Origin: an uncultured Bacteroidota bacterium
GTDB lineage: Bacteria; Bacteroidota; Bacteroidia; 2-12-FULL-35-15
Length of the DNA stretch: 64,000 nt
Reading direction: 5' to 3'
Assembly: GCA_903847205.1 (NCBI GenBank)
Contig: CAINDA010000044.1
Location: 62,001 to 126,000, forward strand
The notes under the pieces were generated by a model. That model was not told the origin of the DNA and ran no database searches. It saw nothing but the letters and a program-made list of their open reading frames with translations. This document shows, one piece after another, positions 27,045 to 31,862 of this stretch (the first letter of the stretch is position 1; the number at the start of each line of letters is the position of its first letter). The position numbers and the translations under genes are program-made.

Positions 27045-28727
27045 TTAAATTTTGCCCTTGACGATACTCAAAATTTCGTTTTCAAGCAGTTGAGTGCTGT
27101 GCTCTATTACGTTGCCTTTTGCAATAAGTTGCTCGGCAAAGGCTTTATCTAGCAGTCCGGCCGCATTTATTTTAACATTAAGGAAAGCGCCCATAACTGC
27201 AGAACGCGCGCACAATGCACCTACACCAGCATCTGTAACCGAATTAGGGTTGCCGGTCTCTGCCATTGCTTTAATAACCGTCATTGATTCGAAACAGAGC
27301 TGCATTACTTTAAAAGGCACTTCTGATGCGTATTTTGTGGCGTCCTGAATAGCTGCAGTCCTGTTTTTCTTTTCTTCTTCAGTTGCTTTAGGCAGTCCGA
27401 AGGCATTCATAATTTTATTGAAGGCGTTAGTGTCTTCATCAACCAATTTTAAAAGTTCATTTTTGAAATACTGGCCTTTTTCAGCCCAGTCAGAAAACTC
27501 TTTCCAGCGATTATCCCAGCCTGGTTTATGTGATGATAAATTTGCAACCATTGTTCCCAGCGAAATACCAAGCACTCCGATATATGCTGCAATAGAACCA
27601 CCGCCGGGGGCAGGGCTTTCGCTGGCTGTTTCATCGGCAAACTCGGTTAGATTCATTTTTATTAAACGTGACTTTGAATCATCTTTTAATAAATATTCTA
27701 TAATTCGTTCCTCGGGTTTGAAAGGTGATAATTCCTCCAGACCAAGAGATTTTACTGCAATTTTAATTAAGTCTTTTTCTGAGATGCCGGTTGAACGATT
27801 TTGCTTTTCAAGAAAGTATTTTCCCGCATCCAGCATTGCTTTCAAAGGAATCAGGCCGACCAATTCAGAACCCGTTACCCGGATACCGCGTTCTGCAGCC
27901 TTTTTGCAGACTTCATCAAATGCAATATGAACGGGAGTTATATTAATGTTAGTTAAGTTCATTGAGATCTGCGCTATACCGTATTCTTCAATGAACCACC
28001 CGATTGCTTTTACTGATTTTAATGATCCTGGGATATTAACAGGGTTTCCTTTTTCATCCGTAACGATTTTTCCGGTTACCTGGTCTCCTTCCCGCTTTAC
28101 ACGGCCTGCTTCACGCACATCAAATGCAATAGAGTTCGCCCTGCGTGTAGAAGTTGAATTTAAGTTTACGTTATAAGCAACTAAAAAATCCCGCGCTCCG
28201 ATTACGGTAGAGCCTGATTTTACAGAGTGTTCAGCCGGCCCGAAATCTGGTTTCCATTCCGGTAATTTTATTTTTTTGAAGAAGCCTTCATATTCTCCGC
28301 CACGGATAACCGATAGATTGCTGCGTTTTTTATTTTGCTGCGCATCTTCATAAAGATATACCGCTATGTTTAATTCTTTGCCGACTTTCTCTGCTAATTT
28401 TTTTGCAAACTCAGCCGTTTCTTCCATTGTTATTCCGGCAATAGGGATGAGCGGACATACATCAGTTGCACCCATGCGGGGATGCTCTCCTTTGTGTTTG
28501 CTCATGTCAATCAGTTCACTTGCTTTTTTTATTGCTGAAAAAGCAGCTTCAATAACAGCTTCCGGAGTACCGACAAAAGTAACCACAGTGCGGTTTGTAG
28601 CTTTTCCCGGATCAACATTTAATAGTTTGACGCCCTCGACTGCCTCAATTTCATTGGTAATTTGTTTGATGATGTTCATGTCGTTCCCTTCGCTGAAGTT
28701 TGGAACGCACTCTATTAGCTGTGTCAT
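27045..28727 (-). CDS. ftcD: Bifunctional glutamate formimidoyltransferase / formimidoyl-THF cyclodeaminase
   Basis: Last step of histidine degradation: the N-terminal domain (about 1-325) moves the formimino group from formiminoglutamate to tetrahydrofolate, and the C-terminal four-helix cyclodeaminase domain (about 360-560) releases ammonia to give methenyl-THF. The start ECVPNFSEG and the catalytic His82 in GEHPRMGATDVCPLIPI mark the first domain; ETASESPAPGGGSIAAYIG marks the second. The fusion has the same order as animal FTCD. The ATG at 28727 is chosen because it gives the family-typical MTQLIECVPNFSEG; an upstream in-frame start at 28748 adds seven residues. HutI lies upstream on the same strand, but two unrelated genes intervene. 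Confidence 0.95.
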   Translation of the reverse strand: MTQLIECVPNFSEGNDMNIIKQITNEIEAVEGVKLLNVDPGKATNRTVVTFVGTPEAVIEAAFSAIKKASELIDMSKHKGEHPRMGATDVCPLIPIAGITMEETAEFAKKLAEKVGKELNIAVYLYEDAQQNKKRSNLSVIRGGEYEGFFKKIKLPEWKPDFGPAEHSVKSGSTVIGARDFLVAYNVNLNSTSTRRANSIAFDVREAGRVKREGDQVTGKIVTDEKGNPVNIPGSLKSVKAIGWFIEEYGIAQISMNLTNINITPVHIAFDEVCKKAAERGIRVTGSELVGLIPLKAMLDAGKYFLEKQNRSTGISEKDLIKIAVKSLGLEELSPFKPEERIIEYLLKDDSKSRLIKMNLTEFADETASESPAPGGGSIAAYIGVLGISLGTMVANLSSHKPGWDNRWKEFSDWAEKGQYFKNELLKLVDEDTNAFNKIMNAFGLPKATEEEKKNRTAAIQDATKYASEVPFKVMQLCFESMTVIKAMAETGNPNSVTDAGVGALCARSAVMGAFLNVKINAAGLLDKAFAEQLIAKGNVIEHSTQLLENEILSIVKGKI

Positions 28728-28792
28728 AAGTAAGCCCCTCTTGACCACCCGAAGGGGAGGAAATGTTAGTTAATTTTTGCTTTGAATTTATT

Positions 28793-29365
28793 TTAAAGTA
28801 CTGCTTGTTTAATTTTTTCTAAAAAGTATTTTGCGCTTGTGCAATTGGGATGTTCGGCAGCTTGGCTGAGAGAAAAATCATATTGGTTAATTAAATTATG
28901 AGCTAATTTAATTTTACTGTTTCCTATTCCTCTTCCAACTTTCCGCAATTTTATTTGTTTAATTTCTTCAAAAGGTATCAAATGGGATTCTGGAAATTGT
29001 TCTTCAAATGCAGCATCTGAAAAAAAAATTCTCATAGCCGTAGTATCAGCTAAAAAACAAGCCTCGATTTGTTTAATACTGACAACTACAATATGATTTT
29101 CCAATGGTTTGATTCTTTCCTTTGTGAGGGTTATGCATGCATCTAAATCAAGATCTGTCAAAATAATTATTTTAGATGCGCCTTTATCAATTAATATTTG
29201 TGAATGTTTTTCAATATTTCGAGGAAGCAAATTTCCGTTTCCTTTTGCATCAATTATTTCGGGAATAAAATCGATTTTTAATTCGTTTAGTAAATTTTTA
29301 AAATCTGCTGATTCTAATATCATTTTTTCAACAGCTCCTTCAGCAATAAAACCCAGTTTTACCAC
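28793..29365 (-). CDS. TOPRIM-like (DUF4276/RloB-like) protein paired with an AAA ATPase
   Basis: A 190-residue protein with features of TOPRIM-fold nucleases: Glu9 in GFIAEGAVE after the first strand, the acidic DLDLD cluster at 71-75 after strand IIILT, and IEACFLAD at 100-107, typical of DUF4276-like proteins. It starts with GTG that overlaps the ATPase stop codon by seven bases (29359-29365), which implies translational coupling. In related two-gene systems (OLD-type, PARIS-type) the ATPase senses and the TOPRIM partner cuts nucleic acid. The nuclease role here is inferred; the exact family needs a profile search. Confidence 0.7.
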   Translation of the reverse strand: MVKLGFIAEGAVEKMILESADFKNLLNELKIDFIPEIIDAKGNGNLLPRNIEKHSQILIDKGASKIIILTDLDLDACITLTKERIKPLENHIVVVSIKQIEACFLADTTAMRIFFSDAAFEEQFPESHLIPFEEIKQIKLRKVGRGIGNSKIKLAHNLINQYDFSLSQAAEHPNCTSAKYFLEKIKQAVL

Positions 29366-30387
29366 GGTATTCCCCCTCCCAAAGCATTTGTTAAAAGTGC
29401 TTCATCCATTTTTAAGCCGTGAAGATTCATTCCCTTTACCTGCTTAACAATGGTTTCACCATTTATTTTGTCAACAAGAATAATTTCATCTGTGGTTAAT
29501 TCCGAAACCAATGTTTGAGAATGTGTATTGAGCCAAATAAAATGTCCTTCCTTGCATTTCTGCCGGAAAAGATTTACCAACTCCTTAATTACTTTTGGAT
29601 TTAAACCATTTTCTGGTTCTTCAATACACAAAAATTGAGGCTCATCGGATTGGTAAACGGCTGTTAGTATGGCAAGGATATTATATGTGCCGTCAGAAAT
29701 TAAATTTTTATTGAAAGGTTTATTTGTGCCTTTTTCATAGATTAATAAATTATCTGATCCATTTAAATCATCTGATACGATTTCTATTTTTTCAAATTCT
29801 GGAATCAGAAGCTGAAGCCAATCGATAATTTCTTCTTTTTTGTTTTTATTTTTCAAAAGACGCTTTAAAACTTTTTCAAGATTTAAGGCATCAAGAGCAA
29901 GTTTTGAGTCATCTTGAACAATTCTTTTAACAAGCTTTTTGTTATTTACAAAAAGACGAGTAAAGTTGAAAAAAAGATTGTATTTGGCCGAGCCAACTCC
30001 TGGCTTGATAGTCGATTCAAATTCTTTGCTGGGTTCGTCTACTTCCAAGTAGTAGTTCTTATCACTATCATTTTTCACTTGAATAGATACGTATGGTCCA
30101 ATGCCATTGTCCCAAAGTGGAACATGTATCATAATCCTATTAGTCGCTCCCTGTTTATTTCGCCCACCAATATTGTTTTTATTAAACAAATCATTCGCAC
30201 TTCCGAATAAATTCAACGCTTGTTTGGGATTCATGAAACTGAAAAAATATAACAATTCTAATGCTTCAAATATATTAGATTTTCCTGAAGCATTTGCACC
30301 AACAAAAACAGAAAATGAGTTTGGTAATTTCAGTTCGAAATTAACAAGCGATTTGTAGTTTTCTATTTTTATACTTTCTATTTCCAT
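29359..30387 (-). CDS. AAA/ABC-type ATPase of an ATPase-TOPRIM pair
   Basis: RecF/SMC-like ATPase, 342 residues. It opens with IESIKIENYKSLVNFELKLP, then Walker A GANASGKS (30-37), an ABC-signature-like SDGT (231-234), Walker B FLCIEEPENG (252-261) and the switch histidine in LNTHSQT (His289). The C-terminus ends GGGIPW, a tail common in ATPases that sit before DUF4276-type genes. No long coiled coil is present. Spot counts of three 60-base lines (29701-29880) give 22-30% G+C, against 48-55% for two lines in hutI, which suggests separate origin. It lies between hutI and ftcD. A role as the sensor of an antiphage or plasmid-stability cassette is inference. Confidence 0.85.
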   Translation of the reverse strand: MEIESIKIENYKSLVNFELKLPNSFSVFVGANASGKSNIFEALELLYFFSFMNPKQALNLFGSANDLFNKNNIGGRNKQGATNRIMIHVPLWDNGIGPYVSIQVKNDSDKNYYLEVDEPSKEFESTIKPGVGSAKYNLFFNFTRLFVNNKKLVKRIVQDDSKLALDALNLEKVLKRLLKNKNKKEEIIDWLQLLIPEFEKIEIVSDDLNGSDNLLIYEKGTNKPFNKNLISDGTYNILAILTAVYQSDEPQFLCIEEPENGLNPKVIKELVNLFRQKCKEGHFIWLNTHSQTLVSELTTDEIILVDKINGETIVKQVKGMNLHGLKMDEALLTNALGGGIPW

Positions 30388-30475
30388 AGCGCAAATTTAT
30401 ACAAATTCCAATTAAGACTTTTTTCTGAATTATTTATTTGTCCTTCGTATTACATCCCCCTGCATCACACAGTCT

Positions 30476-30520
30476 TGCGCGCCCCCCTTCTTTCGCGCAC
30501 AAGCAATCACACAAGGGGGC
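30476..30520. other. G+C-rich overlapping hairpins between hutI and the ATPase gene
   Basis: Within the 146-base gap, tgcgcg (30476-30481) pairs with cgcgca (30494-30499), and gcccccctt (30481-30489) can pair with aagggggc (30513-30520) with one bulge. The two stems share bases, so they are mutually exclusive. The block is far richer in G+C than the ATPase gene and lacks a T run. It could be the edge of an inserted cassette, a repeat remnant or a weak terminator for hutI. Confidence 0.45.
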
Positions 30521-30533
30521 CTTTAGTAGCGCA

Positions 30534-31787
30534 TTATTCAATAGCTACAATCTTTCCATTAATAATAACCGTTTCAATCAGATTACTGCCGAAGGAATAA
30601 GGAATAAAAGAATATCCTGAAATTTCTCTGGTGATAAATACATTTGCCTGCTTGCCAACAGCAATGCTTCCGTGCGTTTCACTTAATCCCATCGCGTAGG
30701 CGGAATTGATTGTTGCAGCATTAATGGCTTCTTCTGGAGTCATTTTATACTGAATGCAGGCTAAAGCAATCATAGTATTCATGTTCCCGCTTGGGCAGCT
30801 GCCGGGATTAAAATCACTTGCAATTGCAAGAGGCAGGCCGGCATCAATCATTTTGCGCGCAGGCGGGAATTGCAGGTTCAAGAAGAGTGCAGCACCAGGC
30901 AGAATCGTCGGCATTGTTTTAGAATTTTGCAATGCTTCTATTTCAGCATCGGCGACAAATTCCAAATGATCAACGCTGACTGCACCCGCTTCAACACCCG
31001 CTAATACACCTCCTGAATTACTTAACTGCTCTGCATGAACTTTTGGAATCATGCCGTATTTTTTGCCGGCAGTGAGTATTTCAAAGGTTTCTTCTTTGGT
31101 GAAATAATTTTGTTCGCAGAATACATCGCAGTAATCGGCCAGCTGCTCTTCGGCAATTACAGGCATTATTTCATTGATGAGTAATTTTATGTAATCTGCT
31201 TTCCGCTCCTTGTATTCAAGTGGAACAGCATGTGCGCCCAGGAATGTAGCTTTGATAGTGAGAGGAGAAAGTGTTTTTAATTTTTTGATTACACGCAGCA
31301 TTTTCAATTCAGATGCCGCCGTTAAACCATAACCACTTTTTATTTCAACCGCTCCTGTGCCCTGCACCATTATTTCATTTAAACGTTTCAGCGCGCTTGC
31401 TGTAAGTTCCTCTTCAGAAGCATCGTTTAATTTTTTTGCAGAGTTTAAAATACCTCCGCCGCGCTGAAAAATTTCTTCGTAAGTCAAGCCATTGATACGG
31501 TCAACAAATTCAGTTTCACGGCTGCCGGCATATACAATATGTGTATGGCTGTCGCACCAGCAGGGGAAAACAAGTTTATCGGAAGCGTCAATGATTGTTA
31601 AGTCTGTCCAGTCTGCAATGCCTTCCCAATCATCCATTTTTCCGAAACCGGTTATTTTATCATTTTCTATTGCAAGCCAGGCATCATCAATATGGGGAAG
31701 ATTTTTCATTGCTTTCCCTGCAATTTTAATTTGGGGATTTTCTTCTGTCTGTACTAACTGTTTTATGTTTTTTATAAGAATTTTCAT
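30534..31787 (-). CDS. hutI: Imidazolonepropionase
   Basis: Third enzyme of histidine degradation, hydrolysing imidazolone propionate to formiminoglutamate. It belongs to the amidohydrolase superfamily: metal ligands in CDSHTHIVYAG (about 79-88), HAVPLE, KVHAEQLS, SVDHLEF, and the catalytic aspartate in ASDFNPGSCPSGNM. Length 417 aa is normal. The ATG at 31787 is preferred over an in-frame TTG at 31796. No hutH or hutU is in the window. Its product is the substrate of ftcD at 27045, so the intervening ATPase/TOPRIM genes interrupt a functional pair. Confidence 0.95.
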   Translation of the reverse strand: MKILIKNIKQLVQTEENPQIKIAGKAMKNLPHIDDAWLAIENDKITGFGKMDDWEGIADWTDLTIIDASDKLVFPCWCDSHTHIVYAGSRETEFVDRINGLTYEEIFQRGGGILNSAKKLNDASEEELTASALKRLNEIMVQGTGAVEIKSGYGLTAASELKMLRVIKKLKTLSPLTIKATFLGAHAVPLEYKERKADYIKLLINEIMPVIAEEQLADYCDVFCEQNYFTKEETFEILTAGKKYGMIPKVHAEQLSNSGGVLAGVEAGAVSVDHLEFVADAEIEALQNSKTMPTILPGAALFLNLQFPPARKMIDAGLPLAIASDFNPGSCPSGNMNTMIALACIQYKMTPEEAINAATINSAYAMGLSETHGSIAVGKQANVFITREISGYSFIPYSFGSNLIETVIINGKIVAIE

Positions 31788-31862
31788 GTTTTGCAATATT
31801 TCATAAAAGTAGATGTTATTGCACTAATTCTGAAATTAATATCAACTAATAAAATAAAATTT

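Follow-up and report, generated by a model that had tools for sequence, protein, structure and literature searches.

A predicted HEC-01-type ATPase/TOPRIM gene pair with a variable ATPase segment in a histidine-degradation operon of an uncultured Bacteroidota bacterium

Pairs of an OLD-type ABC ATPase and a TOPRIM protein are widespread, and for most of them we know of neither trigger nor target. In the OLD classes 1–3 (P2 Old, Gabija GajA, and the retron-linked class), an ABC ATPase is combined with a TOPRIM that carries an E...LxD...E metal site. In the split system PARIS, the ATPase AriA senses phage proteins and releases the TOPRIM effector AriB, which cuts tRNA (PMC12409363). A further pair, HEC-01, is catalogued in PADLOC-DB as a candidate only and is uncharacterised. 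The literature searched contained no paper on its function, none with the term DUF4276, and no published phage, plasmid, or nuclease assay bearing on an antiphage function of a HEC-01-type pair; HEC-01 is mentioned in one paper, as a call in Desulfovibrio piger. In the following, we describe a pair of this kind and compare it with these systems.

Genes A and B between hutI and ftcD

The stretch of DNA analysed here (64,000 nucleotides, in the following the window) carries two genes, A and B, within a histidine-degradation operon. The features of the locus, all on the minus strand, are:

27045–28748, minus strand: ftcD, the downstream flank, fused to a cyclohydrolase domain (TIGR02024, 2.7e-110)
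28793–29365, minus strand: gene B, predicted stand-alone TOPRIM protein of the DUF4276 type and putative nuclease (GTG start, 190 aa)
29063–29341, minus strand: putative metal-site core of B (E9, E13, L69/D71/D73, E101), from conservation and the fold match to OLD TOPRIMs
29359–29365, minus strand: overlap of A and B (7 bases), where the GGGIPW tail of A runs over the start of B
29359–30387, minus strand: gene A, OLD-type ABC ATPase and putative sensor/regulator (ATG start, 342 aa)
29938–30267, minus strand: hypervariable segment of A (residues ~41–150), putative specificity or sensor part, exchanged between otherwise similar loci
30277–30300, minus strand: Walker A of A (residues 30–37), read from the sequence
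30534–31796, minus strand: hutI, the upstream flank, a gene of the host operon outside the A–B system (TIGR01224, 2e-125)

Coordinates and flanking HMM matches agree with a first-pass annotation of this DNA, which had described two minus-strand open reading frames overlapping by seven bases between hutI and ftcD; the same 7-base overlap recurs in nearly all relatives. The true start of ftcD is probably the ATG at 28727 (MTQLIECVPNF). The low G+C content that had been ascribed to the ATPase gene holds window-wide: B (30.2%) and A (32.4%) have the two lowest GC contents among the 40 window ORFs of at least 150 aa, and in the same set B also has the lowest GC3 (17.8%; A, 27.7%), with GC contents of 40.8% and 41.7% in the flanking hutI and ftcD, respectively. 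No mobility gene lies alongside the pair in the 64-kb window, and a promoter and terminator scan at the locus gave counts no higher than those of shuffles.

Protein A is an OLD-type ABC ATPase in which the features of an ABC head (Walker A and B, signature, H-loop) are all present. It matches Pfam AAA_21/AAA_15 (1.9e-24) and contains a Walker A motif GANASGKS (residues 30–37), SDGT at residues 231–234, a Walker B motif around FLCIEEPE, the H-loop histidine H289, and a conserved C-terminal tail GGG(L/I)PW. Across 60 relatives, G30, N32, G35, and K36 of Walker A are invariant, and the residues of the SDG signature, Walker B, and the H-loop are invariant or nearly so. The AlphaFold model (pLDDT 85, with the variable segment modelled poorly) is best realigned with the ABC heads of Rad50, SMC, and PtuA (Z 18–20). 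Profile, motif conservation, and structure hence bear out the ABC-type ATPase with Walker A at residues 30–37, Walker B, and GGGIPW tail that had been read from the letters.

The B protein of the window has no Pfam match, even at an E-value of 10, and that of its closest congener matches DUF4276 (PF14103) at 7.6e-6, under the gathering score. All 65 scanned relatives of B match this family (five of them additionally OLD-like_TOPRIM, one RloB, and one DUF3226), and the initial guess of a DUF4276-like TOPRIM partner was therefore right, albeit by way of the relatives and not of B itself. With the AlphaFold model of B (pLDDT 96.3), plain Foldseek returned nothing below 0.001, and a PDB sequence search with the B profile gave only chance-level ribosomal matches. 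When the model was structurally realigned against 1000 Foldseek candidates with VIA-align, the top six matches were all OLD, PARIS, or Gabija TOPRIMs (Z 9.5–7.5, unrelated folds from 6.3), among which only the best, Burkholderia OLD 6nk8 (Z 9.5), clearly exceeds the level reachable by unrelated folds. It is accompanied by Xanthomonas OLD 6njv and 6njx (within the same range), PARIS chain 8ux9_A (Z 7.8), GajA 8jq9 (Z 7.6), and Thermus OLD 6p74 (Z 7.5). Structure prediction did yield a TOPRIM fold, OLD-type TOPRIMs ranking first, and this order is in agreement with the conserved residues of the metal site. At least 90% of 66 aligned family members share E9, E13, L69, D71, and E101, and among them E101, A102, A106, D107, and P125 are invariant; the OLD-type fold, ExxxE, LxD, and the distal E are all present in B. 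Regarding the TOPRIM residues proposed at first (Glu9 and DLDLD at 71–75), E9 and D71 stood, but the DLDLD reading needs correcting because residue 73 varies between D and E and position 75 lacks conservation, as seen in a first 8-sequence alignment.

Relation to HEC-01 and other described systems

A is matched best, out of 117 families, by HEC-01A (PADLOC PDLC04176, 1.3e-90) and B by HEC-01B (PDLC04191, 2.3e-61 over residues 1–187). As in the PADLOC-DB candidate, the two near full-length matches are adjacent and co-directional, and with both HEC-01A-type and HEC-01B-type features present we assign the pair, by sequence, to HEC-01. The layout had at first been likened to antiphage pairs such as OLD and PARIS, and a distinct, little-described type had been suspected. 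Profile and fold indeed reveal an OLD-type ATPase/TOPRIM pair, which is, however, not PARIS itself; and while the type is uncharacterised, it had already been listed as a PADLOC candidate. What is known already is therefore the OLD-ABC plus TOPRIM kind and the PADLOC listing of the pair.

With PARIS, the locus shares the split into an OLD-ABC sensor (AriA) and a TOPRIM effector (AriB), the match of the B fold to 8ux9_A, and the occurrence of such pairs inside BREX loci. By contrast, A scores only 3.4e-26 as AriA as compared to 1.3e-90 as HEC-01A, B matches only HEC-01B models and no AriB model, and B, with its 190 aa and of the DUF4276 type, is shorter than the 306-residue PARIS chain. Neither protein classifies as the respective PARIS component, and identity with PARIS was rejected. 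The OLD classes 1–3 likewise combine an ABC ATPase and a TOPRIM with the E...LxD...E metal site, and the Burkholderia OLD TOPRIM (6nk8) is the best structural match of B, but in the present locus the two domains are separate genes with no adjacent helicase or reverse transcriptase. Gabija in particular was dismissed, as no UvrD-like helicase GajB adjoins the pair, the neighbours being hutI and ftcD. A also matches MAD3 models of MADS (PADLOC 1.1e-23, NCBIfam 1.1e-24), but with 87 bits it falls far short of the curated MAD3 cut-off of 420, the ground on which MADS was rejected; next to the pair, none of the remaining MADS genes was found.

Operon sites and exchanged segments

Of the 36 congeneric genomes, 32 contain hutI (E <1e-200), and two further genomes gave weak amidohydrolase matches only. 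Most of the 30 hutI loci that were read have hutI followed by ftcD at a distance of 5–155 bp and no A–B pair. The pair occupies this junction in three of the 32 hutI-bearing congeners, namely the window genome, G005, and G023 (the contig of which ends inside A), and the B gene was not found anywhere else in the 36 genomes. In G005 and G023, A begins 9 bases past the hutI stop. The occurrence of the pair in three of 32 congeners, always between hutI and ftcD, with most of the other junctions empty, supports the cassette insertion into the hut operon proposed in the first-pass annotation; a situation in which all relatives carry the pair at the same site with matched codon use did not occur. On the HutI tree, carriers and congeners with an empty junction intermingle, so that this site must have seen at least two gains, or else a single gain with several losses. 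Other cargo is accommodated at the junction as well: hutG (formimidoylglutamase, named by eye) follows hutI in six congeners, and small ORFs of a four-helix-bundle type (by eye) lie in the hutI–ftcD gap of three loci, one of which has hutG in addition.

Between hutI and A, the window contains a palindromic repeat of 133 bp (30394–30526, minus strand), with TGCGCTA copies at 30527–30533 and 30387–30393. Partial copies of it, 75–84% identical, occur on three other contigs of the genome, it folds better than shuffles (z −3.05), and it is missing from G005 and G023. This repeat has the appearance of a REP-type or small mobile element and is a separate insertion, no part of the A–B pair. The TGCGCTA repeats were rejected as ends of the pair since they bound this separate element; insertion of the pair by a transposon or integrase was likewise rejected, given that no mobility gene adjoins it and that the gap is replaced at both hutI/ftcD and tktN/tktC.

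One scan of 84,980 genomes gave 77 loci, in nearly all of which A overlaps B. According to a simple ORF caller, the neighbours are co-directional with the pair upstream in 52 of 59 and downstream in 59 of 69 loci. Two sites dominate in Bacteroidota, directly before ftcD and, in Spirosomataceae, between the halves of a split transketolase (neighbour identities were HMM-checked for L070 and L060 among these loci); seven loci, the window among them, have ftcD as the next gene downstream. In Proteobacteria, many pairs are placed in defence operons: two loci have PglX upstream and PglZ downstream, a third has PglZ downstream, one is preceded by a Type I HsdS and another by a Type I restriction enzyme, and one has Type III methylase/restriction flanks; four more loci share this setting, as judged by eye. 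On the E. coli plasmid NZ_CP010234, the order is pglX-A-B-pglZ-brxL, that is, within a plasmid BREX operon. The placement in BREX is not new, because OLD-ABC/TOPRIM modules in BREX loci have already been reported (PMC12839542). In two further loci, two or three different ATPase plus TOPRIM-like pairs seem to stand in tandem around A–B (by eye). A phage origin of the pair was rejected, since viral contigs yielded no more than three weak relatives and phages one partial relative, as was a plasmid origin: plasmid copies are from E. coli only, and the inspected copy lies inside BREX.

Site fidelity is seen at the transketolase junction. In Spirosomataceae, the B-family gene is found in 26 of 81 genomes (15 genera); 25 of the 26 genes lie 5–80 bp before the gene for the transketolase C-half (tktC), and the remaining copy, at a contig end, is still preceded by tktN and A and followed by the first tktC residues. 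All 26 detected pairs hence sit at the tktN–tktC junction. Inspection of 29 readable junctions revealed 11 filled and 18 empty ones, the latter with a spacing of 8–193 bp. A filled and an empty junction can be compared within genus g220 (G518 and G534, respectively). They share 95.6% identity as far as the tktN stop codon and once more from a point 3 bases ahead of the tktC start codon, from which we conclude that the gap was replaced, with no target-site duplication seen. The B tree, the base of which is unresolved, has starred branches that force at least two changes for the transketolase label and one for ftcD. Altogether, the site of the pair is not incidental, given the strong site fidelity of the family inside operons. 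As side observations, genome G517 has the split transketolase locus twice, with the pair in one copy only, and in four tktN–tktC loci with highly divergent A and B a conserved gene of 195–196 aa (Uma2-like by eye) precedes A.

The most interesting feature of the locus, absent from the first-pass annotation, is the swapped segment of the ATPase. Between G518 and G559, a non-aligning block of 266 bp in A (residues ~46–134) is flanked by DNA of 88% and 92.5% identity, and B is 99% identical despite the swapped A block. Three genomes of genus g82 have flanks of 94–99% identity, and in all comparisons the upstream similarity breaks at A residue 46–47, just after the Walker A helix, with most of the cassette interior being different. 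A similar picture is found for the window A versus that of G005: identity amounts to 65% and 90% over the first 40 residues, drops to 10–35% at residues 41–140, and reaches 55–100% beyond, the DNA similarity likewise breaking at the segment. The A proteins of the window and of G023 still agree where the segment begins.

The information content of A falls to 1.0–1.8 bits at residues 71–140. Bacteroidota pairs share on average 63% identity in the conserved parts of A and 25% in the segment, and even those with 85–87% identical conserved parts have only 28–29% identity in the segment, whereas the listed pairs from other phyla with 82–90% in the conserved parts keep 62–88% (the sequence pairs in these comparisons are not independent of each other). 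This contrast speaks against a lobe merely free of constraint throughout the family, and no wholesale replacement was found in the Proteobacterial relatives. An unconstrained lobe that diverges rapidly could give rise to some of these differences, but not to the sharp replacement inside near-identical DNA. Judged from the alignments, residues ~46–135 thus appear to have been replaced wholesale in the Bacteroidota clade, as expected of an exchanged specificity segment. A conserved frame with a swapped specificity segment at a fixed chromosomal locus is well known from the exchange of target recognition domains (TRDs) in HsdS of Type I restriction–modification systems; the likeness to A is by analogy only, since the proteins are unrelated and DNA specificity is not implied.

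The core of B appears to be exchanged as well: L061 and L095 have similar A proteins (81% identity over the C-half and 73% over the segment), with B residues 1–145 only 35% and the last B residues 70% identical. Between close relatives, B is under purifying selection (G518 versus G559: dN 0.004, dS 0.099, dN/dS about 0.04). One genome (G484) has an intact A and a frameshifted B, of which only about residues 55–189 of the model are matched. Neither metabolic-operon sites nor an exchanged ATPase segment of HEC-01 were met in the literature searched, and we have not seen this mode of life in Bacteroidota, a fixed metabolic-operon gap combined with segment exchange within the ATPase, described.

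Proposed mode of action and rival explanations

Because fold, gene order, overlap, and defence linkage are alike, the pair should work like PARIS, with A sensing and B cutting. A would bind ATP and, presumably in a complex with B, keep this putative TOPRIM nuclease inactive until a molecule of an invader engages A, probably via the hypervariable lobe (~46–135). A change of state in A would then free or activate B, which may cut nucleic acid with two metal ions held at E9, E13, L69/D71/D73, and E101. Conceivable targets are host tRNA, as for AriB, or DNA, as for OLD and GajA, and the infection would be aborted. Since an immune sensor is expected to diversify while the ATP-binding frame and the effector stay, the sensing surface is most naturally sought in the exchanged segment. 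From its position in the intergenic gap of an operon (hutI–ftcD, the transketolase halves, pglX–pglZ, or restriction genes) and from the spacing, the pair is likely to be co-transcribed with its host operon; it may be gained, lost, and re-alleled by recombination via its neighbours on either side and the conserved ends of the pair, with no mobility gene involved.

Taken together, we regard it as probable that the pair is a HEC-01/DUF4276-type anti-invader module, most likely antiphage, which works in a PARIS-like manner and occupies a polymorphic, recombining operon locus. The neighbours in Bacteroidota are metabolic, and guilt by association with defence therefore comes only from the other phyla. 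We put forward more tentatively, as a possibility short of an even chance, that the Bacteroidota branch represents an immune locus in a metabolic-operon gap, where recombination at conserved ends swaps the ATPase lobe and, separately, the nuclease core, and thereby yields a polymorphic repertoire for invader recognition with no mobile element.

The main rivals of the defence reading are an addiction module and a homing-like selfish element. In the former, B would be a toxin and A its restraint, and the pair would be kept by post-segregational killing or under stress with no specific invader sensor. The two overlapping genes, the match of A to AAA_21 (in Pfam 'putative AbiEii toxin, Type IV TA system'), and the other small cargo in the same junctions fit such a module. 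Yet A is larger than a typical antitoxin, the swap of one internal A segment is not expected, the junctions are often empty, and in other phyla the pair is linked to defence operons, so that we consider this explanation unlikely. A homing-like element would nick the empty or divergent allele and be copied in by repair from the flanks, with no benefit to the host needed. This would account for the extreme site fidelity within families, the exact gap replacement, the presence/absence polymorphism, and the missing integrase, and the OLD relative GajA has been described with a site-specific nicking activity (PMC10568477). It accords poorly with highly divergent alleles at one site, different sites in different families, Proteobacterial members inside BREX and restriction–modification operons, a most variable part that lies in the ATPase, and the cleavage by most studied OLD TOPRIMs, which lacks sequence specificity; we deem it improbable.

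OLD-family proteins can also have cellular roles, for example archaeal Cran1 in cell cycle and DNA repair (PMC12796447), but a housekeeping function of this kind is very improbable here, as the pair is patchily distributed and low in GC, has its segment replaced rapidly, and includes a broken B in G484, all of which befits an accessory gene. Hardly credible is, finally, a metabolic accessory that regulates or supports the host histidine or transketolase operon: the pair does run in the same direction as nearby metabolic genes (with ftcD next to it on the downstream side in seven loci, the window among them), but it is missing from most congeners with an intact operon, its family occurs in unrelated operons including BREX and restriction–modification, and its ATPase segment is hypervariable.

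For the anti-invader reading, near-identical strains whose main difference, at one and the same locus, is the ~90-residue ATPase segment or the nuclease core constitute a natural experiment, by which the phage-sensing part becomes directly testable through segment swaps. Candidate defence genes can also hide in housekeeping operons, where surveys of defence islands do not expect them. A laboratory-friendly relative is the pair on the E. coli plasmid NZ_CP010234, which is annotated there as 'AAA family ATPase' and 'hypothetical protein'.
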